A stretch of 64,000 nucleotides of DNA. Source: Pontiella desulfatans. GTDB taxonomy: Bacteria; Verrucomicrobiota; Kiritimatiellia; Kiritimatiellales; Pontiellaceae. Under the pieces are notes generated by a model. The model had not been told where the DNA came from. It made no database searches and saw only the letters and a program-made list of their open reading frames with translations. Location: the NCBI RefSeq assembly GCF_900890425.1, contig NZ_CAAHFG010000001.1, positions 310,001 to 374,000 of the forward strand, in the 5' to 3' direction. The translations under genes and the position numbers were made by a program. Below are positions 1,498-51,139 of this stretch, in pieces (positions within the stretch are counted from its first letter, which is position 1; each line of letters opens with the position of its first letter).

Positions 1498-1608
1498 TCC
1501 TACACAGGCGGGTTGTAATTATGCAATACGCACAGTATGTGTTTGCGGTAGCTTACCCAAGCTCGATGGAAAGCACGCCGAATGAAAACGATGACGAGGA
1601 GGAAGATG

Positions 1609-3987
1609 ATGGATAAAAAACAGATGACCCTGGGTTGGGTTGCAGGCCTTGCAATTCTCGTTTGCCTGGATACGGGCGCGGCTCCCGCCAATAAAAAGGC
1701 CAACAAGTTCAGTTATAAGGAAGCGGTTGAAGTGCTGCCGTTGAACCAGCCGCCGGAATCCGAACTCTCGCTGTGGTACGATGCCCCCGCGACCTATTGG
1801 GAAGAGGCCCTGCCGATCGGTAACGGGCGGCTCGGCGCCATGGTCTACGGCGGCGTTGCAAACGAACTGATCCAACTGAACGAGGATTCGATCTGGGCCG
1901 GCCCACCGATCCCGGAGGCGAACGGAAACATCAGCGAGACGGTCGATCGCGTCCGGGAGCTGCTGTTCGCCGGCAACTATGCGGAAGGGCAAAAGCTCAT
2001 GCAGTCGGTGATGGCGCCGCGCATTTCGCCGCGCAGCTACCAAACCATGGGCGAGCTCCGCTTCGATTTCGGCATCACAAACACGGCAACCGCCTTCCGC
2101 CGCGACCTGAACCTCGACACCGCGATCGCCACCACGACCTATAAGGCCCAGGGCGTCACCTATGTCCGCGAAGTCACCGCCAGCCCAGTTGACCAAGTGA
2201 TCGCCGTCCACATCACCGCCGACAAACCCGGCTCGGTTTCCTTTAGTGCGTGGGTCGAGCGCGATGGCATGTTTGAAATCACCGCGGAAGGAAACGACAC
2301 CCTCGTTGCCCGGGGCCAGGCATCGCAAGGCGAACAGCATCTCGGGGTTAAGTTCGCCACGGTCTACAAAATGGTGGCCAACAACGGGACGGTTACGGCA
2401 ACCGATGGCAAGCTCGTCGTCGCCGCGGCCGACTCGGCCACGCTCTACATTGCGGCTTCAACGGACTACAACGCCGCCGACACGGCCCAGCCGCTGACGC
2501 ACGACCGCGTTGCCGCCGGCAAAGCCACCATTGCGGCCGCGCAGGGAAAAACCTACGCGCAGCTGAAGGCCGCTTCGGTCGCCGCCCACCAGGAGCTGTT
2601 CCGCCGCGTTTCGCTGAAGCTCGGGACACCGTCCAGCAAGTCGACGCTGGAGCGGTTGAAAGCCTACGGCAAGGACGAGATCGATCCCGACTTCGAGGCG
2701 CTCTTCTTCCAGTATGGCCGCTACCTGCTGATCACCTCTTCGCGCGCAGGCTGCCTGCCCGCCAACCTGCAGGGCATCTGGTGCAAGGATCTTGCCGCAC
2801 CGTGGAACTCCGACTACCACATCAACATCAACATGCAGATGAACTATTGGCCGGCCGAAATCGCCAACCTTCCGGAGTGCCACCTGCCGTTCATGGATTA
2901 TATCGAGCGCCTGGTGCCCTCGGGGCGGAAGACGGCGCAGGAGGTCTATGGTTGCCGGGGATTCCTGGCCGGGCACGCGTCCGACGTGTGGCATGGAACG
3001 GTTCCGTTCGGCAAGGCCCAGTATGGCCAATGGGTGGTCGGCGGCGCCTGGTGCACCCAGCATTTCATGGAGCACTATCGCTTTACCCAGGATCAGGCTT
3101 TCCTGAAGGACCGCGCCTATCCGATCCTGAAGGAAGCGGCGCTCTTTTTCCTCGACTGGCTGGTGGAGGATCCGGAAACCGGCAATCTCGTCTCCGGCCC
3201 GAGTACCTCCCCCGAAAATAAATTCATCATTCCCGGAACGGAAAAACAACCGAGCAACCTGACCATGGGGCCCTCGATGGACCAGCAGATTATCTGGGAT
3301 GTCTTTTCCAACACGCTCGACGCCGCACGGATCCTGGGCCTCAACGATGCCTTCACCCAGGAGGTCGAAACGGCGCTCGCCAACCTGGCCATGCCGCAGA
3401 TCGGTTCCGACGGCCGCCTAATGGAATGGACGAAGGAGTTCGGCGAAGTGGATCCAGGGCATCGCCACATTTCCCACCTGTATGGCCTCTATCCCGGCCG
3501 CCAGTACAACGTCCACGACCACCCCGCCATGGTTGCGGCGGCGCGCAAGAGCATCGACCACCGCCTGTCGAAGGGCGGCGGCCACACCGGCTGGAGCCGC
3601 GCCTGGATCATCAACTTCTGGGCCCGCTTCCGCGATGCCGACAAGGCGCATGAAAACATTGCGCTACTGCTCAAGAAATCGACCTACAACAACCTGTTCG
3701 ACAAACATGCGCCGTTCCAGATCGACGGCAATTTCGGCGGCGCGGCGGGTATTGTGGAAATGCTGCTGCAGTCGCACACCGGCCAGATCGAGCTGCTGCC
3801 CGCCCTGCCGAAGGCCTGGCCCGACGGCGAAGTGAAGGGCCTGCGCGCCCGCGGCGGATTCGAGGTCGATTTTGCCTGGGAGCAGGGAAAAGTCACCGAG
3901 ATGGAAATCCGGCGCTTGCCGGGGCTTGAGCCTGCAACGGTTCAGGTGCGCGTCAACGGGGAAATTCGCACGATGGAGACGAAATAG
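1609..3987 (+). CDS. GH95 family alpha-L-fucosidase/L-galactosidase, secreted
   Basis: Glycoside hydrolase of about 792 residues, the usual GH95 length. A signal peptide ([20 protein letters not shown] region) is followed by the N-terminal beta domain ([16 protein letters not shown]) and the (alpha/alpha)6 barrel. Residues matching the GH95 active site are all present: the Asn-x-Asn pair at about 406 and 408 in the [10 protein letters not shown] block, the acid Glu at about 536 in SPEN, and Asp at about 706 in FQIDGNFGG. Family members remove terminal alpha-1,2-linked fucose or alpha-L-galactose by inversion. Three in-frame ATGs (1582, 1606, 1609) are possible; 1609 sits 6 bases after AGGAGG at 1597-1602, the best ribosome site. 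It is the first gene of a tight cluster, 2 bases before a sulfatase. The exact substrate cannot be read from sequence. Confidence 0.93.
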
Positions 3988-9294: not shown

Positions 9295-9323
9295 GAAAAC
9301 CAGGAATGTTGAAAGGAAGACCA

Positions 9324-11129
9324 ATGGAAAAACCCGCAGTAGAACACGTGAAACAGCTTCGTGCCTTGTTGAAGGAGAACCGGCTCGATGCCTACGTGGT
9401 TCCGAGCGCCGACCCGCACCAGACGGAATATGTCCATCCGCACTGGCGCTGCCGCGCCTGGCTGAGCGGCTTCACCGGTTCCGCGGGCACCGCCGTGGTG
9501 ATGGCCGAAAAGGCGGGGGTCTGGGCCGACGGGCGCTATTTCATCCAGGCGGAGCGCGAACTGGAAGGTTCCGGGTTCGAGCTGTTCAAAATGAAAATGG
9601 ATGGCGTGCCGGAGCTGATCGACTGGCTGGCCGAGAACGTGCCGCAAGGTGGGGCCGTGGGGGTCGACGGCCGGTTGATCACCGCGAAGCAGGGCAAGGA
9701 ATGGGCGGAAAAACTGGAAAAGAAAAAGGCACGGCTGGTAACCGATGTCGATCTGGTTTCCCAGGTTTGGATCGACCGCCCGGAGCTGCCGACCGATCCC
9801 GCCAAACGTTGGCCGGTTGAATATGCGGGGCGTTCCGCCGCCGACAAGTTGAAGGAGATCCGCGCGGCCATGGAGGAGCAGGATGCCGACACCTATCTGA
9901 TCTCCTCCATCTACGATGTCAACTGGCTGTTCAATATCCGCGGCAACGATACGGCGCACACGCCGCTGCTCACGTCCTATGCGCTGGTGGAAAAGGATAA
10001 AGCCACGCTGTTCGCCGAAGAAGCCAAGCTGACCCAGGAGGTCCGCGAAGGGCTGGCCGCCGAGGGCATCGGTGTTGCGCCCTACGATGGAATATTCGAA
10101 GCGGTGGAAGAGCTGCCGGAGTCGGCGGCCGTCTTTCTTTGCGAAGAGCGGGTGAGCGCCGCGCTGCGCCGGCGAATCCCATGCAAGGTGGTCGAGGGGA
10201 AGGAGCTGGCCAGCCTGCCCAAGGCACGCAAGAACGAAACCGAACTCCACAACTGGGAGCGGGTGCATGAGCTCGATGGCGTGGCCATGGTGCGCTACTG
10301 GAAATGGCTCGAGGAAAACGTGCCGAACGGCGGCGTCGACGAGGTCGATGCCTCCGATGAACTCGAACGGCTGCGCCTCGCGAACCCCGAATGTCTCGAT
10401 CTGAGTTTCACCTCGATTTCCGGCTATGGCCCCAACGCCGCCATGATGCACTACTGCGCCAAGCGCGGCGATTGCGCCACCCTGGAGCCGAAGGGGTTCT
10501 ATCTGATCGACTCCGGCGGGCAATACCTCGGCGGCACCACCGACATCACGCGCACCTTCGCCCTCGGCGAGCTGACCGACGAACAGCGCATGGACTACAC
10601 GCTGGTGCTCAAGGGCGTCATCAATCTTTCAAGCACGCGCTTCCTGAAAGGGACGGCCGGCAACAACCTCGACGTGCTCGCGCGCCTCGCGATGTGGGAA
10701 CACGGGGTGGACTACAAATGCGGCACCGGCCACGGCGTCGGCTGCTACCTCAACGTCCATGAAGGGCCCCAGGGCATCAGTGCGCATAAGACGTGCGATA
10801 CCCCCTTTGAGCCGGGCATGCTGTTGACGATCGAGCCGGGCGTCTACAAGGAAGACCGCCATGGCATCCGCATCGAAAACATGGCGGTGGTGGAAGAGGA
10901 CTGCGAAACCGAATGCGGCATCTTCTACCGCTTCCGGACGCAGACGCTCTGCCCGGTCGACACCGCACCGCTCAAGGCCGAACTGATGACCGAGAAGGAA
11001 CTCAAGTGGCTCAACGCGTTCCATCAAAAGGTCTTCGATCGTCTCGCCCCGCATCTTTCCGCAGAAGAGCGCGCCTGGCTCGAAAACAAAACCCGCCCGT
11101 TCCCCGCTGAGGTTGGCCACAAAGGATAA
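9324..11129 (+). CDS. Xaa-Pro aminopeptidase, M24B family (PepP/APP type)
   Basis: Cytoplasmic aminopeptidase of about 601 residues with the three-domain layout of eukaryote-like aminopeptidase P: two creatinase N-terminal domains (residues about 1-310) and a C-terminal pita-bread domain with dinuclear metal ligands (YLIDSGGQYLGGTTDITRT supplies Asp residues, GTGHGVGCYLNVHEGP the His, and LTIEPGVY a Glu). It removes N-terminal residues preceding proline. An upstream in-frame ATG at 9306 exists, but the ATG at 9324 is preceded by GGAAG at suitable spacing and begins a better-conserved N-terminus. It is third in the tdh-kbl-pepP run, so threonine use and proline-peptide breakdown are probably coexpressed. 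Confidence 0.93.
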   Translation: MEKPAVEHVKQLRALLKENRLDAYVVPSADPHQTEYVHPHWRCRAWLSGFTGSAGTAVVMAEKAGVWADGRYFIQAERELEGSGFELFKMKMDGVPELIDWLAENVPQGGAVGVDGRLITAKQGKEWAEKLEKKKARLVTDVDLVSQVWIDRPELPTDPAKRWPVEYAGRSAADKLKEIRAAMEEQDADTYLISSIYDVNWLFNIRGNDTAHTPLLTSYALVEKDKATLFAEEAKLTQEVREGLAAEGIGVAPYDGIFEAVEELPESAAVFLCEERVSAALRRRIPCKVVEGKELASLPKARKNETELHNWERVHELDGVAMVRYWKWLEENVPNGGVDEVDASDELERLRLANPECLDLSFTSISGYGPNAAMMHYCAKRGDCATLEPKGFYLIDSGGQYLGGTTDITRTFALGELTDEQRMDYTLVLKGVINLSSTRFLKGTAGNNLDVLARLAMWEHGVDYKCGTGHGVGCYLNVHEGPQGISAHKTCDTPFEPGMLLTIEPGVYKEDRHGIRIENMAVVEEDCETECGIFYRFRTQTLCPVDTAPLKAELMTEKELKWLNAFHQKVFDRLAPHLSAEERAWLENKTRPFPAEVGHKG

Positions 11130-11375: not shown

Positions 11376-14300
11376 CTATTCAGCCAGCTTGACCCGATAG
11401 AACTCGTTGTCCTTATCCATTTCTTCGGTGATCGAGATAACGGCATCCTCGCCGGCGACATTCGTTACGGTTTCCCAGATGCCAACGGTCAGCGATTCCC
11501 TGGCTTGGAGCTCGTAGTTCGCACCCGACTGCCCGTACCAGCTGAAGCCTGCGTGCGTGCCGCCGCCCCCGGACAGATCCATCGTAATGTCGCCGATGCC
11601 GGTTACGACATTGACCGGAACAAACGAAACGCTCTGAATCTCAAGCCCCGTGGAAGCCCGTTGGGAATAGATCGCGAAGTGGTATTCCTTGGTCAGGTCG
11701 AATGTCGTCGTGCCCATGGTTGCGGCGGCTCCATCGACACTATAGCTGTAGTTGCCGTCCGCATCCACCGTAAGGCTGAAGGTGCGGTCGGTTCCGGCAG
11801 AGATAGTTTGAGCAGTGCTCAACGAGGTCAATATGCCAGCCGCATCGCCCTCCGTATAGGTGCAGTGGTTTAGGCCCTGATTACCATTCCGGGCGGTGAG
11901 GCTGATTCCAAGGGACTCTTGCTTGGTCGCGGCATAAAGCATCCCTGGTAGACCCTCAACACCATCAATCAGTCCAATGCCTACTGACTCCGAAAGGGTT
12001 CCGGGAACGCCAACGATCGAATAGGTTACGTCCAGTGTGAAGCCGTGTGTTACGGGGAATGTATTAGCCGTGTGCACGCCGCCGTGCTGAGCACCCAAAT
12101 TGCTGCCCAATCCTTGACTGAACACCAGGTTGTCCGAATTGTCCGTGACATAAAGTGTGTAGCTGGTGAGTGCTACATATTCCAATCCGCCACCGCTTCC
12201 GGTGTTCACGTCAAGCCCATCGCCATCGAAGGTGTCGACATATTTGGAGAGGTCGGGAGCGACATACGCGAGGACTTCAATCGTCATCGTGGCGGTGGCG
12301 GTGCGGCCAATGTTGTCCGTCACCTGAACGTTGAAGGAGTTGACTCCCACATCACCCGGAGCAGGCGTTCCGCCGAGGGTGCCGTCTTCGGCGATGCTCA
12401 GCCAGGTGCCGGTCGTCAGGTTGCTGAAGACCAATTCCGCACCTGTCGCCGCGCTGGCAATGGAGCCGGTGTATTCCACATTTTCCTCGGCAGGATCTGC
12501 ACTGAAGGGATCCGCGCTAAACGTCGGAGCGGGGTCTGCCCACTCGGTATCGGTGCGGAACGGGGCGGCGGGCAGGCCGTCGGAGTTCACCAGGTTGATG
12601 GTGTCCTTCGCATAGGGCAGCCAGGCGTAGCGAACATACATCGGGGTTGCAACCGATGTGGAACTGACGGTGACGTCCGAACCGCTGATGCTTGCGCTGT
12701 CGGCGGCATGGAATACAGCGTCCGCACCCGCGACTTCGAATGCGGCCGGATCGGCGGCATCGTCGGTCGTCAGGCCGGTGGCGCTGGAGAAGCTGACGGT
12801 GACGTCGCTTCCGGCGATGCTGACGGACGACAGGGTCGGTCCGTGTGCTTCAACCGGGAGGCCGTATTCATATTTCTGTGCCAGCAGCGAGAGGCGCTGG
12901 CCGATCGGCCCCTTGTCGTAGGGGTGGATGTTGCCGGAAAGGCCGGTGTCCAGCGTAACCGCAACATAGGCGTTGGGGATCGTCAGCAATTGGTCCTGCG
13001 CTTCGCGGAACCAGGGCCAGTAGGTGCTGTTGTAGGAGGGGAGCTGAACGCCGTAGAAGGCGAGGTCGCCCTGGCCAAACAGCGAACGGTATTCCGTAAC
13101 GAATGCGGGCAGGGTGTCGCCATACTGGTCGGCATCGGTCGCGTTGCCGGCGTTGGCTTCGCCCTGATACCACACGAAACCGGAAATGCCATAGTCCAAC
13201 AGCGGGTGGATCATCCGGTTGTAGATCAGGTTGGGACGCTGGCGGATCCAGACATCGTCGTAGTTGATGGAGCCATCGAGCATGGCGATGGCATCCGCTT
13301 CGTCGTTGGCGTAATACTCTTCCATCTCCGCGGCAAAGTGCGGGAAGTCGTTGGTCATCTGGATGGGCATCCATCCCTCGATCGTGGAGCTACCCCATGC
13401 GCCCCAGATGATGGCGGTGGGAACGCCGGTTTTCTGGTAGTTTTCATAGGCGAAGACCGTGCCGACGGAAGTCCAGAAGCTCGGATCGGAGTTGCCGTGC
13501 CAGGTCATCGAAGCGGTGGTCTGCGGGGAGGTGGCCGCCATGGAGCGTACCTGCAGGCAGCGGATGGGGGCGCCGTTGGTGATCGCGTCGATATAGGTGG
13601 TTGCACCCTCCATTTCGCTCAGCGGGCGAACCATGTTCGACTGTCCGAAGGCGATCCATACATCGCCGATCAGTACATCGGCGAGCGTATTGGTTTCGCC
13701 GTTGCTGATTACGTCCATCTGGTAGGGGCCGCCGTAGCCCATGGCGGGCAGTACTGCGGTCCAGTTTCCTTCGGCATCGGCCGTGGTGTTGGTTGAAGTG
13801 CCGTTGATCGAAACCGAAACCGAGGCGCTGGCATCGGCCAGGCCCCAAACCGATACGGCTTTGTCGCGCTGCAGCACCATTCCATCCTGGAACGGCGAAC
13901 CCAGTTTCAGGCCGCCCGATCCGGCAACTTTCGTTCCCGTCACATAGAAGGTCAAGTCCTGGTCATAAGACGTATTGGTCGTTGATTCGGTTCGAAGCGT
14001 TCTTCCTCTTGGGTATGTGGACCCCCCGGAGCCGATTCCCAACTGGAGAAACTGGGCTCCTGTGGCATCCGCGTCGTTGAAGACGATGAACGCGCCATAA
14101 GCCGTGTTTTCGGCGAGTTCCAGCGGTGTGTCGAAGCCGAAGTGCAAATAATGCCCGCCCGTAATCGATTCCGGCAGCTCATAAACATCGCCATTCACCA
14201 GCACTTCGCCAACGCCGGTTCCATTCATCGGGTCGCCGTCGCTCAGGTTTCCATCGCCCGTGATCCACTTGTCCATGGTGTCGGCGTCTGCCGTGGGGCT

Positions 14301-14615
14301 CCACTCAAAAATCCAAAGCTGAATGGTGTCGTTGGTTCCAAAGGTGTGGGTGGTGTGCTTTTTAAGCGCGAATTCCGTCACGCTCCAAGCCTTGTTGGCA
14401 TCGCCCGTGTCGGCGGTGGTGAAGGTTTGTCCGCGGCTGAAGCCTGAGTTGGCATGGTTGGTTCCGAATGCGCGGGTGTAGCTACCCATTTGGGAATGCT
14501 TTGCGGCCTCGCCGCCGGGCTCGGTCGTGTCAACGGTAAGCGTTGCCCCTAGGCTGGTCTGGCATAGCAGGGCAACCACGCCCATTGCCATGGTGAAGCT
14601 TCGTGTGGTCTTCAT
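11376..14615 (-). CDS. Secreted SASA-type (sialate O-acetylesterase-like) multidomain esterase
   Basis: A 1079-residue exported protein with signal peptide MKTTRSFTMAMGVVALLCQTSLGA. Residues about 25-230 form a beta-rich domain also found in the sulfatase at 22106. The SASA esterase domain follows (about 235-650): GDVWIAFGQSNMV gives the nucleophile Ser near 326, FVWYQGEANAG lies near 480 and NIHPYDK gives the likely His near 564. After it come an Ig-like putative-binding domain (GTLGGTPAPGDVGVNSF), a lectin-like region and the C-terminal tail domain ending NEFYRVKLAE. Family members remove O-acetyl groups from sialic acids or other sugars; in marine PVC bacteria the substrate may be another acetylated sugar. 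AAAGGAGA precedes the start. Confidence 0.88.
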   Translation of the reverse strand: MKTTRSFTMAMGVVALLCQTSLGATLTVDTTEPGGEAAKHSQMGSYTRAFGTNHANSGFSRGQTFTTADTGDANKAWSVTEFALKKHTTHTFGTNDTIQLWIFEWSPTADADTMDKWITGDGNLSDGDPMNGTGVGEVLVNGDVYELPESITGGHYLHFGFDTPLELAENTAYGAFIVFNDADATGAQFLQLGIGSGGSTYPRGRTLRTESTTNTSYDQDLTFYVTGTKVAGSGGLKLGSPFQDGMVLQRDKAVSVWGLADASASVSVSINGTSTNTTADAEGNWTAVLPAMGYGGPYQMDVISNGETNTLADVLIGDVWIAFGQSNMVRPLSEMEGATTYIDAITNGAPIRCLQVRSMAATSPQTTASMTWHGNSDPSFWTSVGTVFAYENYQKTGVPTAIIWGAWGSSTIEGWMPIQMTNDFPHFAAEMEEYYANDEADAIAMLDGSINYDDVWIRQRPNLIYNRMIHPLLDYGISGFVWYQGEANAGNATDADQYGDTLPAFVTEYRSLFGQGDLAFYGVQLPSYNSTYWPWFREAQDQLLTIPNAYVAVTLDTGLSGNIHPYDKGPIGQRLSLLAQKYEYGLPVEAHGPTLSSVSIAGSDVTVSFSSATGLTTDDAADPAAFEVAGADAVFHAADSASISGSDVTVSSTSVATPMYVRYAWLPYAKDTINLVNSDGLPAAPFRTDTEWADPAPTFSADPFSADPAEENVEYTGSIASAATGAELVFSNLTTGTWLSIAEDGTLGGTPAPGDVGVNSFNVQVTDNIGRTATATMTIEVLAYVAPDLSKYVDTFDGDGLDVNTGSGGGLEYVALTSYTLYVTDNSDNLVFSQGLGSNLGAQHGGVHTANTFPVTHGFTLDVTYSIVGVPGTLSESVGIGLIDGVEGLPGMLYAATKQESLGISLTARNGNQGLNHCTYTEGDAAGILTSLSTAQTISAGTDRTFSLTVDADGNYSYSVDGAAATMGTTTFDLTKEYHFAIYSQRASTGLEIQSVSFVPVNVVTGIGDITMDLSGGGGTHAGFSWYGQSGANYELQARESLTVGIWETVTNVAGEDAVISITEEMDKDNEFYRVKLAE

Positions 14616-14877: not shown

Positions 14878-16026
14878 ATGGAGATGGCCGATATGGGTTT
14901 GGAACGCGATGGGTTGACGGAAAAATACAAGAAGCGCCGCGCCGCCGTCTTGCGGGCTGCCGTTAAGCAAAGCGACGGCCGGGTTGCCGGATTGATGATC
15001 ACCAATCCGGTGGATGTGCACTATCTGAGCGGTTTGCGCGAGGGCTGCCCGGCACTGCTGATCGGCAAGAAATGGTGCGTGCTGTTCACCTCGAACATGT
15101 TCAAGGATCTCGTGCCGCGCTTTGCCCCCGGTGCCGAAACGATGCTCTTCAAGCATCTCGACCAGGAGATGGCCGGCATCTTCAACAGCCGCGGCGTTAA
15201 GGGCATCGGTATACAAACCGACCATATGGCCATCGATCGCTACCGCTCGCTATGCAAAACGATTCCGGAAAAGAAGTTGGTTCCGGTGCCCGGGGTGGTG
15301 GGGCGCTGTCGGGCGGTGAAGGACGACGGCGAAATTGCCCTAACGCAAAAGGCCATCCGGATTGCGGAAAAGGCGATGAAGCAGTTGCTGGGCGGCGGCG
15401 CGGGCTATTTTATCGGCAGGACCGAAAAGCAGTTGGCGGCCGAGCTGGAATACCGGATGCGCTCGCTGGGGGCGGACAAGCAGGGCTTCCAAGGCAATGG
15501 AACCATTGTGGGCGCCGGTCCCAACAGTGCCGCATGCCACCATGTGCCCACCAACCGCAAGGTGAAGAGAGGCGATCCGGTACTCTTCGACTGGGGCGCC
15601 GAGCTGGACGGCTACCGCAGCGACATGACGCGCGTGGTGTTCATTGATTCGGTGCCGGAGAGGATCGGTAAAATCTATTCGTTGGTGCGCGAGGCGCATT
15701 TGGCGGCGGTCGACCTGCTGAAGCCCGGCGTCTCCTGCCGCAAGGTGGATGCGGCCGCCAGGGATTGGATTGCGGCGGCGGGATACACCACGGAGTTCCG
15801 GCATGGGCTCGGGCATGGCATTGGTCTGCAGATCCATGAAGCGCCGACGCTCGGAACCGCGTCCAAGGAACGGCTTAAAAAAAACATGATCGTAACGATT
15901 GAACCCGGCATCTACTTCATCGGCACCGGCGGTGTGCGGTTGGAGGACGACTACCTGATCACCTCGGACGGCTGCAAAAACCTCTGCACCCTCCCGACCA
16001 AGCTGGATAAATGGATATTAACCTAA
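14878..16026 (+). CDS. M24B family Xaa-Pro peptidase (short form)
   Basis: A two-domain M24 peptidase of 382 residues, comparable with bacterial prolidase/PepQ-type enzymes: creatinase N-terminal domain (about 20-150) and pita-bread domain (about 160-375). Metal ligands are visible in LFDWGAELDGYRSDMTR (two Asp), FRHGLGHGIGLQIHE (His) and VTIEPGIYF and VRLEDDYL (two Glu). It acts on peptides with proline at the second position. ATGs at 14884 and 14893 are alternative starts; no strong ribosome site separates them. Its stop overlaps the transporter start (TAATG), so the two genes are translationally coupled, which suggests that imported peptides are its substrates. Confidence 0.9.
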   Translation: MEMADMGLERDGLTEKYKKRRAAVLRAAVKQSDGRVAGLMITNPVDVHYLSGLREGCPALLIGKKWCVLFTSNMFKDLVPRFAPGAETMLFKHLDQEMAGIFNSRGVKGIGIQTDHMAIDRYRSLCKTIPEKKLVPVPGVVGRCRAVKDDGEIALTQKAIRIAEKAMKQLLGGGAGYFIGRTEKQLAAELEYRMRSLGADKQGFQGNGTIVGAGPNSAACHHVPTNRKVKRGDPVLFDWGAELDGYRSDMTRVVFIDSVPERIGKIYSLVREAHLAAVDLLKPGVSCRKVDAAARDWIAAAGYTTEFRHGLGHGIGLQIHEAPTLGTASKERLKKNMIVTIEPGIYFIGTGGVRLEDDYLITSDGCKNLCTLPTKLDKWILT

Positions 16027-19000
16027 TGTGGAATAACCTGAACCGATCCATGATGTTTTGCCAAATGTTGTTTGGCCTCTCCTATTACGGCGTGATGGGT
16101 ATCTTGACGCCCTTTTTCCTGGAGCTCGATTATAGCGAAGAACAAACCCTGCTGATCCTCGGCGCATTCTCTGCCATCGGCCCCCTGTTCGCCGTGGCCG
16201 GCGGCTTCGTTGCCGATAAATTCCTCGGGGCGTATCGGGGCCTCACCATCGCCTGCATGGGTTTTGCGGCCGGCTACCTCCTGCTCGTGCTGGCCGCATG
16301 GGTGCGGAATGTTCCCTTGGCATTGAGCGGCATCGCGCTCGCGAGTTATTTCCGCGGCCTCATGTCGCCCTCCTATCCGAGCCTTTACAAGCGCACGTTC
16401 AAAACGCAGGAGGATTTTGAAAATGGCATTCCGGTAAACTATTCGGTCAATAACGTGGGTGCGTTTTTGGGGATGTACCTCTTCCCGGCGTTGATTCTCA
16501 AGGCCGGGTTCCAAGGGGGGTTCCTGTTGTCCGCGCTTTTGAGCGCACTGGCGCTCGGCACGCTGGTGTTCATGCGCCGGCCGCTCAGGGGCGTGGCGGC
16601 GGAGATTGACCAGGCGCCCGTCGGCGTCCGGAACTGGCTGGCGTTTTTCGCGGTATCGGCGGCGATGACCGGCTTGGTGTTCTTCATGTTTTCGAACATG
16701 GAAGCGGGGCGGATCATGGTCTACGTGATCGGCGGTGCGGCGATTCTCTATTTTGTTTCGCTGATGTTCACGTTCGGCCGCGCGCAGCGGCTGGAGATGG
16801 GCACCATCCTGGTGATGATGTTTCTGACCACCTGTTTCTATGTCTATTACGGACAGATCATGACCTCGTTGAACCTGGTGGCCATCAATACCATGCGCGG
16901 CGACCTCTTCGGCATCATCCCCATTACCCCGGCAGCCTCCATGTCGATGAATCCATTGTGGTGCATGGTGGCGGGCCCGGTGATTGCCCTGGTCTTCTCG
17001 AAGATGGAAAAGCGTGGCATCAATTGGTCGACGGCCACCCGGGTTGCCATCGCCTTCGTGCTGACGGCCATCGCCTTCGGAACCATGACGGCGGCCATGG
17101 AACTGGTGGGCGCCGATGCGGTGGTTCGTCCGGAAATCTTTCTCGTGGTTCATCTCTTCCAGGCGTTCGCGGAAGTCATCGTGGGGGCGTTGGTGGTGGC
17201 CTTCATCCTGTCGGTCGCACCGCGGCGCATCGAAAACTTTTCGGTCAGTCTCTTCTCCGTTGCCATCGCGTTGAGCGGAATTTTCGGTGCGGTCTTCTCG
17301 ACCTCCATCGCGCAGGAAAAGGGGATGGAGATTACGCAGGGGATTGTTCAAGAGGTCTATGGCAACTATTTCGGGCTGCTGACGGTTCTGGCCGTAGTCA
17401 TGGTTGGCATCGCCTTCGGCGCCTCGGTCATCATTCGCAACATGCTCGCCGCCGCCAAGCAGTCAGCTGTGTTGTTGTGCGGTGTGCTGTTGGCCTGGTG
17501 CATCGTTCCGCCGGCTGAGGCCGCCGGGGCTGAACGGGGGGAGGCGACGAACCCGGTGCATATCGGAAACGTGGGCGGCTATGCGCATATCGGCAAGGAA
17601 AACGCCGCCGATTCGTATGGTGCCGGGTTTTCGATGTATACGGCGGCCTGGCCCTTGCATCCCCGGCATCCCGGGCGCCGCTTCCAATCCGGTTTGTTCG
17701 GAACGTGGATGTTTCCCGCGAACAACCAGCCGGCCCCCATTAAACTTTACACCGATATCGAGGGGGGGCTCGGCTGGTGGCGCAACACGGAATATCCCAC
17801 AACGACGCCCAAATTCATTATGGGGGGCGTGGAACTGAATTTCCGTGGATGGGCCAACGGGCCCGGCGCGGGGAAGGGCAAGGACTGGAACAATCCCAAG
17901 GGGCACTATGGCGTGGCGCAGCTGAGCCCCTGGCTGTTGTTTCCGCCGGACGGGTTAAACCTGAAGCAGGGCACCTGCGGCGAACTGTTCGGATACGGCT
18001 ATCACCCGCTGCCGCTCACTGAACCGAAAACCACCACGGCGGGGGCGGATGTCCCGACCGGGAACCACTCCTGGACGCTGTTCCTTGGCACAGGCAATTT
18101 CAAGGGGCCGGTCGCGTTTTTCACGCCCTACTTCTGGTCGCGCGCATCGGTCGACGAGCCGAGCGTGGCGGGCATGTTCCTCGACAGCCGCCCCTCAAAG
18201 GCGAACCGCTCCCTTTCGATGGAGACCCAACACATTCTGTGCGCGCAGGTGACCGACTCCAAGGGCGAGACCTTCGCCCGGATGGCGCCGACCCTGTTCC
18301 CCGTCGGCCCCAAGGGCGATTCGCTGATCATGCACCGCCTGAGCGTCTACGACAAAACCGCCCTGTGGGACGGAGTCGAGGCCTGGTTCAACGGTGGCGA
18401 TCCGGTTGACGGCCGCTTCGCCCCCGGGGGAACCTTCACGCAACGGTTCAACGGCAAGGGCGGCGTGGGGTGGAAGGTTTACATGAAGCATGTTCCCAAG
18501 GAAGACCGGGCTCCGTTCGCGATGGATTTCATGAAGCCGGATGCGGCGGATCCATACACCTTCCGCTATCTGTGGGACCTGGATACGGTCTCGCTGAAGA
18601 AAACCTCGCGGGGAGCCGTGGTGGAGCTGCCGCAGCTGTATCGTCTGGATACATCCGGAAAGAGCAAGAACGGGAAATGGATTCCAACGCGCACGGCGAG
18701 CATCGAGGCCAAGCAACAATTGGGCGAGGCCGACTTCAGTCCGAACCCGAAGGAAACACCCTATGTCTACACGACGCCGGAAGACCCCGGCAGTTGCTGG
18801 AAAACCCCCGGCCCCGTGGCGGGGCCGTTCAAGGCGAACCTGGGCGACGGCAGCGCGGTGACCTACCATTGGTATCGCTTCGCCGACCAGCCCGCGCTGC
18901 TCAATGCCGACCTGACCGACGAAGAGCGCGAAGCCCTGCAGAAGAAGGTGGAAAAAATCCACGCGCATTGGAAAAACGATCGCGACTATCTGGCACCGCC

Positions 19001-19106
19001 CACCGTTGGAACGCTCGCGGACCTCGACCCCGCGTTGATCGTTTCCCCGCCGAAGGGCATGGAGGTCGGCTATGTCCCGATCGTCACCCGGCAGGAGCCG
19101 CAATAG
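16026..19106 (+). CDS. POT/PTR2-type peptide transporter fused to large extracytoplasmic domain
   Basis: A 1026-residue fusion. Residues 1 to about 475 are a polytopic major-facilitator protein of the proton-dependent oligopeptide type: the GGFVADKFLGAYRGL loop after helix 2-3 and GIPVNYSVNNVGAFLG match POT family motifs. A hydrophobic segment at about 479-503 (VLLCGVLLAWCIVPPAEA) looks like a signal peptide and is followed by about 520 residues rich in Trp, Gly and Pro that resemble a secreted beta-sandwich or sugar-binding protein and that I cannot assign. An upstream in-frame ATG at 16011 would overlap the peptidase by 16 bases; the TAATG start is preferred. It is coupled to the M24 peptidase and lies 10 bases before the GH95-like gene. 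Confidence 0.82.
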   Translation: MWNNLNRSMMFCQMLFGLSYYGVMGILTPFFLELDYSEEQTLLILGAFSAIGPLFAVAGGFVADKFLGAYRGLTIACMGFAAGYLLLVLAAWVRNVPLALSGIALASYFRGLMSPSYPSLYKRTFKTQEDFENGIPVNYSVNNVGAFLGMYLFPALILKAGFQGGFLLSALLSALALGTLVFMRRPLRGVAAEIDQAPVGVRNWLAFFAVSAAMTGLVFFMFSNMEAGRIMVYVIGGAAILYFVSLMFTFGRAQRLEMGTILVMMFLTTCFYVYYGQIMTSLNLVAINTMRGDLFGIIPITPAASMSMNPLWCMVAGPVIALVFSKMEKRGINWSTATRVAIAFVLTAIAFGTMTAAMELVGADAVVRPEIFLVVHLFQAFAEVIVGALVVAFILSVAPRRIENFSVSLFSVAIALSGIFGAVFSTSIAQEKGMEITQGIVQEVYGNYFGLLTVLAVVMVGIAFGASVIIRNMLAAAKQSAVLLCGVLLAWCIVPPAEAAGAERGEATNPVHIGNVGGYAHIGKENAADSYGAGFSMYTAAWPLHPRHPGRRFQSGLFGTWMFPANNQPAPIKLYTDIEGGLGWWRNTEYPTTTPKFIMGGVELNFRGWANGPGAGKGKDWNNPKGHYGVAQLSPWLLFPPDGLNLKQGTCGELFGYGYHPLPLTEPKTTTAGADVPTGNHSWTLFLGTGNFKGPVAFFTPYFWSRASVDEPSVAGMFLDSRPSKANRSLSMETQHILCAQVTDSKGETFARMAPTLFPVGPKGDSLIMHRLSVYDKTALWDGVEAWFNGGDPVDGRFAPGGTFTQRFNGKGGVGWKVYMKHVPKEDRAPFAMDFMKPDAADPYTFRYLWDLDTVSLKKTSRGAVVELPQLYRLDTSGKSKNGKWIPTRTASIEAKQQLGEADFSPNPKETPYVYTTPEDPGSCWKTPGPVAGPFKANLGDGSAVTYHWYRFADQPALLNADLTDEEREALQKKVEKIHAHWKNDRDYLAPPTVGTLADLDPALIVSPPKGMEVGYVPIVTRQEPQ

Positions 19107-19116
19107 GAAAAAGAAC

Positions 19117-21480
19117 ATGAAAACGATTCAACAGATTTTTTTGACCGCGAAGACGCAAAGGCGCAAAGGAAATGAATTGGGGATTCTTAGCGTCTTAGCG
19201 TCTTTGCGGTCATTAATACTCGCCACCCTGTTCTTGTCGGTCGCGGCGTGGGCGGCGGTGCCGGAGATCGATGCGGTGGATTGGCCGGTGTTCATGGCCG
19301 GGCAGGACCTGCAGTGGAAAAAGCTTCCGTCCAAATGGTTCGAAGGGCCGTTCCTCGGCAACGGCGAGCAGGGGACGCTGATGTACCAACTCGACCACCG
19401 GACGCTGCGGTGGGATGTCGGCTGCTCGGCGGCCCACGACCACCGTCCGATCGAAAAGGACGATCTCACGGAGAAAAACGTTACGGTGCTCAACCGCGGC
19501 CGCCACTTCATCGGGCACCTGCGGATGGAGCTCCCGGCAGATGTGACCGGCAGCCAGTCGCGCCTCTCGCTGTGGGATGCCGAGGCCACGGGCACGCTCT
19601 CCGCCAAAGGCGGTTCCGCCGAATGGTCGGCGCTGGCGCATGCCACCGAACCCGTGCTGCGTTTCGAACTGGCGGGCGAGGGCCGTCTCAAGGGCGCGAA
19701 GTTAGCCTATGTTGCCGAAGAGGCGCGCAATCCCCGTGCGCTGCGCGCCAGCATGCTGCCCAAACCGCGCAACGAGTTTCGCGTGCCCGCCAACCCATCG
19801 CCCGAGCTCGAAACACTCGACGACGGGGTGCGGACCGCCGTGCAGAATCTCGCTTCCGGCGGACAGACCGCCGTGGCCTGGATCGAAAAGAAGGCCGGCG
19901 ATAAAACGCAGCTTTGGCTCAGCGTCCTGCACAGCTTCCCGGACAAGGGCGCGGTGGAACAAGCCGTGGCCGCCGTGCGCGCCGCGGCGAAGGCCGACCA
20001 GGCCGCCTGGGTGCAGGCGCACCGCGACTGGTGGCATGCCTACTATCCGCAAAGCTTTGTCTCCATCGGCGACCGCTACTGGGACGCGTTCTACTGGATC
20101 CAGCAGTACAAGCTCGCCTGCGCCACGCGCGACAAGGGGTGGATGATCGATAACCAAGGACCATGGCTCCAGCCCACCGCATGGAATGCCCTTTGGTGGA
20201 ACCTCAATGTGCAGCTGTCGCATAGCGGTGGCTACACCGCCAACCGCCGGGGGGCGGTTTCGGCCATGAGCCATCGGCTCGATACCAACCGCGACAACCT
20301 CGCGCGCAACGTGGCCGAACCCTACCGCGCCGATTCCTATGCCATTGGCCGCACGGTGTCGGGGTGGGATTTCCTCGGCCATGCCGGCCAGCCCGGCGGG
20401 CGCGATCCGATCGAACCCAACATGGGCCGCGAAACCGGCAACCTGCTGTGGGGACTGCACAACGTCGATCTCGAATGCCGCTATTGGCAGGATGCCGAGC
20501 TGCGCGACAACGTGCTCTATCCGCTCCTCACGCGCGCCGTGAACTATTACCGCCACTTCCTGGTGGAAAACAAGGAGGGGCAGCTCTCCCTGCCGGAAAC
20601 CTACAGCCCCGAATACCGCCGCGCGGCCGACTGCACCTACGATATCGATCTGCTCCACTGGGGTGTCGGGCGCCTGCTCGAACTCTCCGCCGGCAAGGAC
20701 GAACCGCTGGTTCCCGTCTGGAAGGAGCTGCAGGCCAGGCTTGTGCCGGCGCATGTCGATGCAGAGACCGGACGCATGGTTGGCCGCAACGTCAAGCTGA
20801 CCGGCGGGCATCGCCACTGGTCGCACCTGCTTGCCATCTATCCGCTGCGCACCCTCACGCCGGAGGCGCCCGCCGACCGCGCGCTGATCGACCAAAGCCT
20901 GAAGCATTGGCACAGCTTTGGACGGGGCTTGGCCGGCTATGCCTATACGGGGGCGTCCTGCATGGCGTCGTTGCTGGGCGACGGCGACGAAGCCCTCCGT
21001 TATCTTTCCATTCTCAAATCCCATCTACGGCCCAATACGCTCTATTACGAAATCGACCACCTGCCCGTTATGGAAACGCCGTTGCACGGCGCCACCGCCA
21101 TGCAGGAAATGCTGCTGCAGAGCTGGGGCGGCAAGCTCCGCGTCTTTCCCGCCGTACCGTCGGAATGGCCCGATGCCCAGTTCCACCAGCTGCGCGGCGA
21201 AGGGGCCTATTTGGTCAGCGCCCGCCGCGAGCACGGCACGACGCAATGGGTGCTCGTCCAGTCCGAAGCCGGCGGAACCGTGGAGGTGGATCCGGCCATG
21301 GCCGATGCCCAATGGGTTGCTTCCAACGAGGCCACGGTCAAAAAAGGCGCCGACGGCATCTGCACCATCCAAACCGAGCCCGGCGCCACGGTCCTGTTCT
21401 GGCCCAAGGGCGCCGCCCGGCCCACGCCATCGGTCGCCCCCGTCGCCCCGCATGGCAAGGAGCACCCGTTCGGGTTGTAG
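19117..21480 (+). CDS. Diverged GH95-like six-hairpin glycosidase, secreted
   Basis: About 787 residues. Blocks can be lined up by eye with the two clear GH95 genes: WWNLNVQLSHSGG keeps the Asn-x-Asn pair, LPETYSPEYR keeps the Glu of SPEN, GHRHWSHLLAIYP matches the [13 protein letters not shown] block, and HGATAMQEMLLQSWGG matches the C-terminal [13 protein letters not shown]. The Asp of the DGNFG block appears replaced by Glu in METPLHG, so the specificity or mechanism may differ. Start ATG 19117 follows AGGAAAAAG, 10 bases after the transporter stop. The signal-peptide region contains a palindromic repeat (19143-19211) read in frame as TAKTQRRKGNELGILSVLAS. The hydrophobic LILATLFLSVAAWA before VPEID probably serves as the export signal. 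Confidence 0.8.
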   Translation: MKTIQQIFLTAKTQRRKGNELGILSVLASLRSLILATLFLSVAAWAAVPEIDAVDWPVFMAGQDLQWKKLPSKWFEGPFLGNGEQGTLMYQLDHRTLRWDVGCSAAHDHRPIEKDDLTEKNVTVLNRGRHFIGHLRMELPADVTGSQSRLSLWDAEATGTLSAKGGSAEWSALAHATEPVLRFELAGEGRLKGAKLAYVAEEARNPRALRASMLPKPRNEFRVPANPSPELETLDDGVRTAVQNLASGGQTAVAWIEKKAGDKTQLWLSVLHSFPDKGAVEQAVAAVRAAAKADQAAWVQAHRDWWHAYYPQSFVSIGDRYWDAFYWIQQYKLACATRDKGWMIDNQGPWLQPTAWNALWWNLNVQLSHSGGYTANRRGAVSAMSHRLDTNRDNLARNVAEPYRADSYAIGRTVSGWDFLGHAGQPGGRDPIEPNMGRETGNLLWGLHNVDLECRYWQDAELRDNVLYPLLTRAVNYYRHFLVENKEGQLSLPETYSPEYRRAADCTYDIDLLHWGVGRLLELSAGKDEPLVPVWKELQARLVPAHVDAETGRMVGRNVKLTGGHRHWSHLLAIYPLRTLTPEAPADRALIDQSLKHWHSFGRGLAGYAYTGASCMASLLGDGDEALRYLSILKSHLRPNTLYYEIDHLPVMETPLHGATAMQEMLLQSWGGKLRVFPAVPSEWPDAQFHQLRGEGAYLVSARREHGTTQWVLVQSEAGGTVEVDPAMADAQWVASNEATVKKGADGICTIQTEPGATVLFWPKGAARPTPSVAPVAPHGKEHPFGL
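19143..19211. repeat. Palindromic repeat inside the GH95-like coding region
   Basis: A 69-base inverted repeat runs from GACCGCGAAGACGCAAAGG to TTAGCGTCTTTGCGGTC. It has the length and layout of the family A cores but a different sequence. It is translated in frame as part of the signal region of the gene at 19117. Confidence 0.8.
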
Positions 21481-25439: not shown

Positions 25440-26555
25440 GTGACGGATCCACGTCTTCAAAAACTGGCCCAGGTGCTGGTGAACTATTCGGTCGGCGTTA
25501 AGCCCAACGACCGCGTGGCCATCAGCGGAAACTCGATTACCGAACCCCTCATCGTCGAAATCTATCGCGAAACCCTGCGGGCGGGCGGCTATCCGATCGT
25601 CCGCGTTGCGCCGGAAGCGCTCGGCGAAATCCTGCTCAAGGAAGGTTCGGACGAGCAACTTTCCTACTTGAGCCCGATCGCATTGTACGAGCTCGAAAAC
25701 ATCGATTGCCGCATCGGGCTTTGGGGGCAGGAAAACACGCGTGCGCTTTCCAACACCGATTCGAAGCGCCACAGCCTGATGAGCGCCGCCCGCAAGCCGT
25801 TTTCCGAAACCTTCTTCCGGCGCGCCGCCAGCGGCGAGCTGCGCTGGACGGGGTCGATGTTTCCCACCCACTCGTCGGCCCAGGATGCCGGCATGTCGCT
25901 GGCCGAATACGAGGATTTTGTCTTTTCCGCCGGGCTGCTCGACCACGACGATCCGATTGCCTCCTGGCAGGCGCTCTCCAAAAAGCAGGATGCGGCGGTC
26001 GATTATCTCAACGGGCATAAGCAGATCCATATCGAAGCGGCCAACGGAACCGACCTGGCCTTCCGCCTCGAAAACCGCCGGTGGGTCAGCAGCTGCGGCA
26101 ACGACAACTTTCCGGATGGCGAAATCTACACCTGCCCGGTGGAGGAAACCGTCGAAGGCACCATCTGCTTCAGCTTTCCGGCTATCCACATGGGCCACGA
26201 ATGCCAAGGCGTGAAACTCCGTTTTGAAAAGGGCGTGGTGGTCGAAGCAACGGCCGAAAAAGGCGGGGAGTTCCTCAACCACATGCTCGACCAGGACGAG
26301 GGCGCGCGCCGCGTCGGCGAATTCGCCATCGGCTGCAACTACGCCATCAAAAACTTTTCGCGCAACACGCTCTTCGACGAAAAGATCGGCGGAACCGTGC
26401 ACCTGGCCGTCGGCGCGAGCCTGCGCAAGGCCGGCGGCGTGAACGATTCCGGCCTGCATTGGGACATGGTCTGCGACATGCGTCCCGGCGGCCGCATCCA
26501 GCTCGATGGCAAAACCGTCCATGAAAACGGCCGGTTCACCGAAGTGGAAATTTAA
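25440..26555 (+). CDS. M29 family metallo-aminopeptidase
   Basis: A 371-residue aminopeptidase of the M29 (AmpS/PepS, thermophilic aminopeptidase) family, cytoplasmic, binding two metals. Recognisable blocks are the start RLQKLAQVLVNYSVGVKPND, the CGNDNFPDGEIYTCP region with a metal Glu, EFAIGCNYAI, and the C-terminal HWDMVCDMRPGG with the His/Asp pair. The start codon is GTG, 6 bases after AGGAG at 25429-25433. It lies 28 bases behind the sulfatase stop, so they may be cotranscribed. It is the third aminopeptidase-type gene in the left half of the window. Confidence 0.92.
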   Translation: MTDPRLQKLAQVLVNYSVGVKPNDRVAISGNSITEPLIVEIYRETLRAGGYPIVRVAPEALGEILLKEGSDEQLSYLSPIALYELENIDCRIGLWGQENTRALSNTDSKRHSLMSAARKPFSETFFRRAASGELRWTGSMFPTHSSAQDAGMSLAEYEDFVFSAGLLDHDDPIASWQALSKKQDAAVDYLNGHKQIHIEAANGTDLAFRLENRRWVSSCGNDNFPDGEIYTCPVEETVEGTICFSFPAIHMGHECQGVKLRFEKGVVVEATAEKGGEFLNHMLDQDEGARRVGEFAIGCNYAIKNFSRNTLFDEKIGGTVHLAVGASLRKAGGVNDSGLHWDMVCDMRPGGRIQLDGKTVHENGRFTEVEI

Positions 26556-48735: not shown

Positions 48736-51108
48736 ATGATGTGTAAATTTATTTTTGTGATGGTCGGACTGGTCGCGGCGGGAACCACATTTGCCGCGCG
48801 CCATGCCGCGGATGAATCGAACAACCCGAAGGCGGACATGAAGTTCGAAAAGGATGCCCCGGCTCCGGACGAGCCGCTGACGCTCTGGTATCGCAAGCCC
48901 GCCCTCCATTGGGAAAACGAGGCGTTGCCGGTGGGCAATGGCCGGCTGGCGGCGATGGTGTTCGGCGGCGTGAACGAGGAGCGGCTTCAGCTCAACGAGG
49001 AGACGGTCTGGGACGGTGTCCCGACCGACTACACCAATCCGGAAGCGTTCGAAGCGCTGCCGGAAGTCCAGCGCCTTCTTTTCGAAGGCAAGAATGTCGA
49101 GGCCAAAAAACTGGCCGGCAATAAAATGATGGGGCGGCCGCACAAGGTTAAATCCTACCAGACGTTGTGCGATCTGCTTCTCGATTTCCCGGACACCGAA
49201 AAGGTGGAGGGCTACCGCCGCGAACTGGATCTGACCACGGCCATCAGCCGCACACAGTATACGGTTGGTGGGGTGGACTATGTGCGCGAGGTTTTCGTGA
49301 GCGCGCCGGATCAGGCCATCGTGGTGAATCTCAAGGCGAGCCGGAAGGGCAAGATCAACTTCACCGCCCGGCTGGCGCGGGAAAATGCATCCACGGAATC
49401 CGCTTCCGGCAACCGCCTGGTCTTGCGCGGCAAACTGGGCATCGACTACGAGGCGCAGCTGTTTCCCATGGCGGAAGGTGGAAGGGTCGAGTCCAACGGC
49501 GGCTTGCTGACGGTTTCCAATGCGGACGAGGTGACGCTGCTGGTGGTCGGGGCAACGAGCTACAATGGCCCAACCGATATCTCCGGCGATGCCACGGCGC
49601 GTTGCGAAGGCTATTTGAAGGCCATCGGGAAAAAGCCCTACGGGCAGCTGCGCGCCGCCCACGTTGCCGACCACCAGGCCCTGTTCAACCGGGTAAAGCT
49701 CGACCTCGGCAGCACCGATGCCATTAACCTGCCGACCGACGAACGGTTGAAGGCCGTCAAAGGCGGCCGTTTCGATCCGCAGTTTGAAGCGCTCTATTTC
49801 CAGTTTGGCCGCTACCTGCTCATCGGCAGCTCCCGCCCCGGCTATCTCCCGGCCAACCTGCAAGGGAAGTGGAACCAATATTACAAAGCGCCGTGGAACG
49901 CCGACTACCATTTGAACATTAACTTCCAGATGAACTATTGGCCGGCGCAGGTCTGCAACCTGTCCGAATGCCACCTGCCATATTTCGACTATATCGAAAG
50001 CCTCGTGCCCTTCGGCGAAAAGACGGCGAAGGTGCATTATGGCGCGGACGGCTGGACGGTGCACCACCTCTCCGACATCTTCGGCATGGCGGCGCCCGCC
50101 GACGGCGTGCACGGCGTCTGGCCGTTGGGTGCGGCCTGGCTGGCGCGCGACATGATGGAATACTACCGCTTCAACGGCGACATGGCGTTCCTGAAGGAGC
50201 GCGCCTATCCGCTGATGAAAGGCGCCGCCGAATTCATGCTCGATTTCCTCATCGAAGCGCCGGAGGGAACGCCGGCGGCCGGCAGGCTGGTCACCAACCC
50301 GTCGCACTCGCCGGAAAACTTTTTCCTCATGGAGGACGGCACGAAGATTGAATTCACCTATGCGGCCACCATGGATCTGCAGATTATCCAGGACTTGTTC
50401 AACGGATTGCAGGAAGCCAGCCTGGCCATCGATCCCTCCGGAAACCATGATGCGGAATTCCAGCAAGCGCTCCAGGCAACCTTGGAAAAACTTCAGCCCG
50501 TTCGGATCAGTGCGAAAACCGGACGTTTAATGGAGTGGATCGAGGACTACAAGGAGTTCGATCCGAACCACCGCCACACGTCCCATCTCTACGGGCTTCA
50601 TCCGGGAACATCCATCACCCGCAACGCCACGCCGGATCTCTATGAAGCCGCGCGCAAATCGCTGATCGCCCGCGGTGACGGCGGCAAGGGATGGAGCATG
50701 GCGTGGAAAGTGAACATGTGGTCGCGGCTGCACGATGGCGACCGCTCCTATGCGTTGCTATGCAACCTGCTCAGAAAGATGACCCTGACGAACCTGTTCG
50801 ATACGCATCCGCCTTTCCAGATCGACGGCAACTTCGGCGGCACGGCGGCGATTGCCGAAATGCTGTTGCAGAGCCACGATGGCGAGGTGCAGCTGCTTCC
50901 GGCGCTTCCCGGCGTTTGGAAGGAGGGTTCCGTGCAGGGGTTGCGCGCCCGGGGCGGGTTCGAGGTGGATATCGCGTGGAAGGACGGCGCGCTGTCCGCC
51001 GCGCGAATCACATCGCTCAATGGCAACCCGCTGAAACTCCGCCATGGAACCAACACCCTCGAAAAGGAACTCGCGAAGGGCGAGACCTTCACCTGGTACG
51101 GCAAATAG
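48736..51108 (+). CDS. GH95 family alpha-L-fucosidase/L-galactosidase, secreted
   Basis: A 790-residue GH95 enzyme. Signal peptide [21 protein letters not shown]-terminal domain with [16 protein letters not shown]; catalytic barrel with the Asn-x-Asn pair at about 394 and 396 ([11 protein letters not shown]), Glu near 527 (SPEN) and Asp near 697 (FQIDGNFGG). All GH95 active-site residues are kept. It resembles the enzyme at 1609 throughout, so the window carries a paralogous pair. ATG 48739 is an equally good start (AGGG at 48728). A LacI-type operator lies upstream. The subtilase starts 32 bases past its stop. Confidence 0.93.
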
Positions 51109-51139
51109 CGCTGCGCCGCCAATGATGGAGCATTTGAAC

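Follow-up and report, generated by a model that had tools for sequence, protein, structure and literature searches.

Several described systems resemble parts of the locus analysed here. In Bradyrhizobium, FbcH is the precursor of cytochromes b and c1, encoded by one ORF and cut by signal peptidase; it resembles the protein considered below in joining a polytopic membrane protein to a secreted protein in one ORF through an internal signal peptide, although the proteins themselves are unrelated, the parts of FbcH form one complex, and its cleavage has been demonstrated, whereas that of the present protein is predicted. Among transporters, the closest described proteins are DtpA and DtpB, which are matched with E values from 1e-31 to 3e-36, and the true peptide/H+ symporters carry an ExxER motif and a lysine in TM4. 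Among secreted enzymes, neprosin (PF03080; PDB 7zvb/7zvc) is a glutamate-class prolyl endopeptidase with the dyad E188/E297 (PMC9343461), and HC7 of Bacillus cereus (PDB 8pmu/8pn3) has been described as a di-glutamate mucinase (PMC13003899).

The window, that is, the whole stretch of 64,000 nucleotides of the marine bacterium Pontiella desulfatans that was analysed, contains a single ORF that would combine features of these systems. With slightly better than even confidence, its product is read as a polyprotein processed by signal peptidase, in which a lineage-specific fusion has joined two unrelated proteins, a POT-like transporter and a secreted glutamic-peptidase-like enzyme, with the Sec signal peptide between them left intact; the gene is taken to share an operon with those of an Xaa-Pro peptidase and a GH95 glycosidase. 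The ORF, its parts and its immediate neighbours are as follows.

14878 to 16026, plus strand: cytoplasmic M24 peptidase of the Xaa-Pro dipeptidase/aminopeptidase type, translationally coupled to the next frame (Pfam Peptidase_M24 E 4.1e-63; PepQ-type E 1.2e-54)
16026 to 19106, plus strand: transporter, signal peptide and secreted domain in one ORF of 1,026 codons (translation)
16026 to 17459, plus strand: POT-like MFS transporter half, residues 1-478, without ExxER or a TM4 lysine (TIGR00924; Vibrionaceae identity; DtpB alignment)
17442 to 17522, plus strand: internal Sec signal peptide with predicted cleavage after residue 499 (sequence reading; hydropathy)
17523 to 19103, plus strand: secreted domain, residues 500-1026, glutamic-peptidase-like, with a predicted neprosin/HC7 fold (AlphaFold model; neprosin the top match, replicated)
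17760 to 17762, plus strand: codon of E579, putative first catalytic glutamate (IE579GG, proposed equivalent of neprosin IE188AG; invariant in 92/92)
18222 to 18224, plus strand: codon of E733, putative second catalytic glutamate (proposed equivalent of neprosin E297; invariant in 92/92; model strand 224-237)
19117 to 21480, plus strand: GH95-like glycoside hydrolase (Pfam GH95_cat E 2.6e-17; tblastn)

The frame is free of stops from 16026 to 19103 and ends with TAG at 19104-19106, giving a product of 1,026 residues in which both halves are intact, as the sequence-only reading had proposed in describing a transporter that runs into a large tail in one frame. The start codon ATG 16026 overlaps the stop of the M24 gene (TAATG) and agrees with the way in which the Vibrionaceae homologues begin (MWN), while an alternative in-frame ATG upstream, at 16011, was judged less likely. 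The GH95 gene begins at ATG 19117, preceded by an AGGA site, 10 bases past the stop of the fusion ORF, so that the arrangement noticed earlier, with a coupled M24 gene in front and a glycosidase 10 bases behind, is correct on both sides.

The transporter half (residues 1-478) is 67-70% identical, from end to end, to stand-alone Vibrio and Photobacterium proteins of 491-498 residues, such as that of Vibrio sp. THAF64, which differ from it in ending with a hydrophilic tail, in not being fused, and in having neither an M24 gene nor a relative of the secreted domain nearby. Residues 10-463 align with DtpB at E 3e-36, the TM7-TM10 region, including that of the TM10 glutamate, is retained, and the POT family cut-off is passed (TIGR00924 score 142.1 bits against a cut-off of 130.2), as is that of MFS_1 (42.7 against 33.4). 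The differences from DtpA and DtpB, apart from the fused tail, concern the motifs: in the DtpB alignment, ExxER is absent from TM1, where QMLFGLSYYG stands opposite ELWERFGYYG, and the lysine is absent from TM4, where GLMSPS stands opposite GLFKAN. Both are likewise missing in the Vibrionaceae homologues (L025, L026 and L027), which together with 16026-17459 constitute a POT-like subfamily lacking these features. Since the missing residues are those of true peptide/H+ symporters, the earlier label of POT-type proton/peptide symporter is too strong in its second part, and, judged from its sequence, this half is best called POT-like. The loss of the motifs in the subfamily suggests altered coupling or an altered substrate, as well as horizontal transfer. 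Among 388 genomes sampled from the phylum, none contained a close relative of the POT half, the best matches being only 22-27% identical, in open frames of 487-525 codons; taken with the similarity to Vibrionaceae, this suggests that the transporter gene was acquired horizontally and then fused upstream of a resident pair consisting of the domain and GH95.

At the junction, the homology of the POT half continues up to residue 478 without leaving the reading frame of the tail, and the 12-20 further hydrophilic residues that the Vibrionaceae proteins possess beyond this point are replaced by KQS-AVLLCGVLLAWCIVPPAEA/AGAERGE, a classic Sec-type sequence that contains two prolines and an AxA site (the slash marks the predicted cut). 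As read from the sequence, an internal signal peptide is formed here by the n-region RNMLAAAKQS, the h-region AVLLCGVLLAWCIV and a predicted signal peptidase I site, PPAEA/AG (residues 495-501), the signal-peptide residues being 479-499; hydropathy peaks at 1.92 over residues 481-499. The AxA site lies 18 residues ahead of the first conserved block of the secreted domain, compared with 12, judged by eye, in the relative L028. The helix resembling a signal peptide that had been noticed earlier is thus well founded as a Sec-type sequence. A lipoprotein reading was rejected because a lipobox is absent, the residue preceding Cys being W or L. The only internal ATG, at 17442, has no Shine-Dalgarno sequence in front of it, which makes a second internal start unlikely; of the starts inspected across the window, about two thirds do have such a sequence.

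The possibility of a missed stop or frameshift near the junction, which the sequence-only reading had itself raised, was examined at the sequence level. A frame error within 17440-17530 was rejected in view of the POT homology to residue 478 in the frame of the tail and of the lack of an alternative POT-like end, none having been found in the other reading frames at the junction, where the closest out-of-frame stops downstream are at 17516 and 17531. The POT tail, a stop, a spacer and the start codon of a second gene are all absent, and a simple frame error is unlikely because one wrong base cannot remove the four together. It could still be supposed that the true genome holds two adjacent genes merged by an assembly error, given that all relatives have separate genes and that the fusion occurs in one genome only; this is highly improbable, however, as no single-base change accounts for the losses, GC3 runs smoothly (0.70-0.85) and in frame through the junction, and the genome of P. 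desulfatans F1 is a hybrid Illumina and PacBio assembly (PMC6388578). The fusion is therefore taken as real at the level of the assembly, and it looks like a single-genome event.

The tail, which had earlier been left as unrecognised, proved, when searched by itself, to belong to a very widespread family of stand-alone secreted proteins, with at least 570 confirmed relatives (loci) in a scan of public genome contigs. Residues 28-548 of the tail query are 55-68% identical to such proteins, and the best 80 of the at least 570 loci, which span this range of identity and are spread over Planctomycetota, Verrucomicrobiota, Bacteroidota and others, were inspected. Most of these 80 are proteins of about 545 residues with their own signal peptide, in keeping with the large extracytoplasmic domain anticipated from the sequence, and some carry a T9SS tail or a Laminin_G_3 domain. 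In six (L059, L073, L078, L094, L101 and L107), an N-terminal SASA carbohydrate esterase is fused to the domain, as identified by Pfam in L059 and L107 and by motif or open-frame length in the other four. A separate paralogue is present in the same genome (G000:C3:1141919-1143505), beside sulfatases and a GH95-like gene, and GH95 relatives adjoin the domain in 7 other loci (tblastn).

No transporter is attached to, or located near, the domain in the best 80 of these loci, and no fused POT was found in the 388 genomes of the phylum. Within a sample of the genus, family, order and class, the tail domain occurs in 8 of 97 genomes, the present one included, and is free of a transporter everywhere outside the window. 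A conserved fusion was rejected on this absence of a POT in or beside the loci, and as the relatives have separate proteins, the outcome that the sequence-only reading had itself named as a refutation, the view of the fusion as a general or conserved two-part machine does not hold; among all loci examined, the architecture is found only here. Mobile-element context was also considered and rejected, there being no tRNA in the window, no viral relatives, and no relatives of the domain on plasmids. Its restriction to a single genome, together with the separate tail paralogue, would agree with a recent fusion, accidental and non-adaptive, that has left one or both halves without function, yet both halves are intact and all family-invariant residues are retained, making this explanation very unlikely.

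The secreted domain has no match among the Pfam, NCBIfam or PDB sequence models, and its possible nature was approached through an AlphaFold model built from 30 family sequences (pLDDT 84, pTM 0.88). In Foldseek, neprosin ranked highest (E 3.8e-4, probability 0.98), ahead of eqolisins and HC7, and VIA-align gave a Z of 13.7 for neprosin (239 residues, 3.8 A) and 10.3 for HC7, with further matches to 4qhw (Z 9.6), the protease CPAVM1 (Z 8.6) and eqolisins (Z about 7). A model of a member of the second subfamily, which is 36% identical, again retrieved neprosin (pLDDT 71; Foldseek 3.6e-5, probability 1.00). In this replicate, six glutamic-peptidase chains were found at E<0.001, with Z 14.9 for neprosin and 12.1 for HC7, the two models being not wholly independent since their alignments have members in common. 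Weak Foldseek matches (E > 0.005, TM < 0.2), to unrelated binding domains of large proteins, were set aside as generic beta-sandwich noise. The resemblance to neprosin lies in the predicted beta-sandwich, whereas no sequence-profile similarity is detectable (hhalign probability 0.1; profile alignment no better than shuffles); PF03080 itself has no match in this genome and none in 289 genomes of the phylum, in a search run without a positive control.

For the comparison of residues, neprosin numbering was taken from the PDB sequences, and two annotated Novosphingobium neprosins were added. E579 and E733 are the only glutamates invariant across the 92 family sequences, recalling the glutamate pair of neprosin. 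By eye, E579 sits in IEGG, resembling IE188AG (IExG at the first glutamate in both), and the strand of E733 is preceded by a strand reading GPVAFFTP and then by a short helix, much as E297 in neprosin is preceded by GTVVGYWP and a short segment. At the position of HxY, which belongs to the active site on the first strand of neprosin and where the alignment is uncertain, the window domain would have GxY; the tyrosine is invariant and a histidine at -2 occurs in 9 of 92. As D720 is invariant in the family too, the assignment of the dyad is not unique, and E579/E733 is put forward as a proposal. Compared with neprosin, the window domain lacks a pro-domain and has an extra C-terminal part of about 150 residues, and in its family the active-site histidine would usually be missing; compared with HC7, which it would resemble in fold, in secretion and in a glycoprotein-directed role that fits the sulfatase and glycosidase neighbours, it is only 4-6% identical and lacks a CBM5.

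On the basis of these models, the secreted half is most likely a di-glutamate peptidase of neprosin/HC7-like type, acting on glycoproteins or proteoglycans, and the fold points to an enzyme instead of the binding protein that had been suggested for the tail. A carbohydrate-binding or polysaccharide-active beta-sandwich of GH16 or laminin-G-like type is the natural competitor, given the sulfatase, SASA and GH95 neighbours, the richness of the domain in tryptophan, and the fact that GH16-type glucanases and jelly rolls share the sandwich at Z 6.9-9.6. These values lie below that of neprosin, however, and the matches that stand clearly above background in both models are neprosin, HC7, the CPAVM1 protease and their relatives; with just two invariant glutamates in the family as well, a carbohydrate-directed domain is considered doubtful.

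In the mechanism proposed, for which we infer cleavage, catalysis, the substrate and any coupling to import, the 14-helix POT-like half would sit in the membrane with its C-terminus in the cytoplasm, by analogy with the DtpB structures; given this orientation, the signal peptide would insert as an extra N-in/C-out helix and carry the tail to the periplasm. Signal peptidase I would probably cut after ...PPAEA (residue 499), where the stand-alone relatives are cut, so that the second half would become a free, soluble enzyme outside the cytoplasm and the transporter would stay in the membrane. The enzyme may then cut glycoproteins outside the cell into short products, which could be imported, possibly via the transporter half, for final trimming by the coupled cytoplasmic M24 Xaa-Pro peptidase; the GH95, SASA and sulfatase enzymes of the window would strip the glycans.

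The retained signal-peptidase site suggests that the halves are separated and do not act as one hand-over chain, in opposition to the earlier idea that the tail binds glycopeptides and passes them to the membrane part; the fusion probably does not create such a machine. An uncleaved protein, in which the former signal peptide serves as an extra helix that tethers the peptidase-like domain to the outer face of the inner membrane and cleavage and uptake are physically coupled, is an unlikely alternative: it has in its favour the single chain, an h-region hydrophobic enough for an anchor, and the sense that the coupling of M24 and transporter would make, whereas the helix-breaking PP and the AxA site are kept at the usual place, the relatives that stand alone are either soluble or secreted to the surface, some of them with T9SS tails, and no other genome among the loci examined has kept the fusion. 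Quite unlikely, too, is a broader version in which the secreted half defines an unnamed and very widespread bacterial family of di-glutamate peptidases for glycoproteins or proteoglycans, one member of which is in this genome permanently tethered to a transporter, with cleavage, uptake and M24 trimming working as one unit. Returning to the processed polyprotein, it would be an arrangement rarely seen in bacteria, with one precursor giving both a transporter and a secreted enzyme and a cleavable internal signal peptide lying between the two, the cleavage itself being predicted.

That the tail family probably consists of glutamic-class peptidases is a more valuable result than the fusion, as it offers a testable function for a family that Pfam, NCBIfam and PDB sequence models leave uncovered. 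The putative glutamic peptidases would work alongside GH95 enzymes, sulfatases and carbohydrate esterases, and, if this is true, such glycan degraders would own a dedicated proteolytic arm for glycoproteins. Strains of this kind were reported not to grow on peptides (PMC7356697), which counts against the proposed mechanism; the authors of the strain paper have proposed that peptidases in these bacteria make the glycans of proteoglycans accessible (PMC7356697).

The window is a dense region of sulfated-glycan degradation. It contains three GH95 genes (1582-3987, 19117-21480 and 48736-51108), four sulfatases (at 3990, 5510, 22046 and 36085), a SASA esterase on the minus strand (11376-14615) and a GH39. 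Two M24 peptidases and one M29 aminopeptidase are located inside 17.3 kb (9306-11129, 14878-16026 and 25440-26555), and a subtilase (S8) with an Ig-like domain (51044-53821), adjoining a GH95 gene, is a second likely secreted peptidase of the region.
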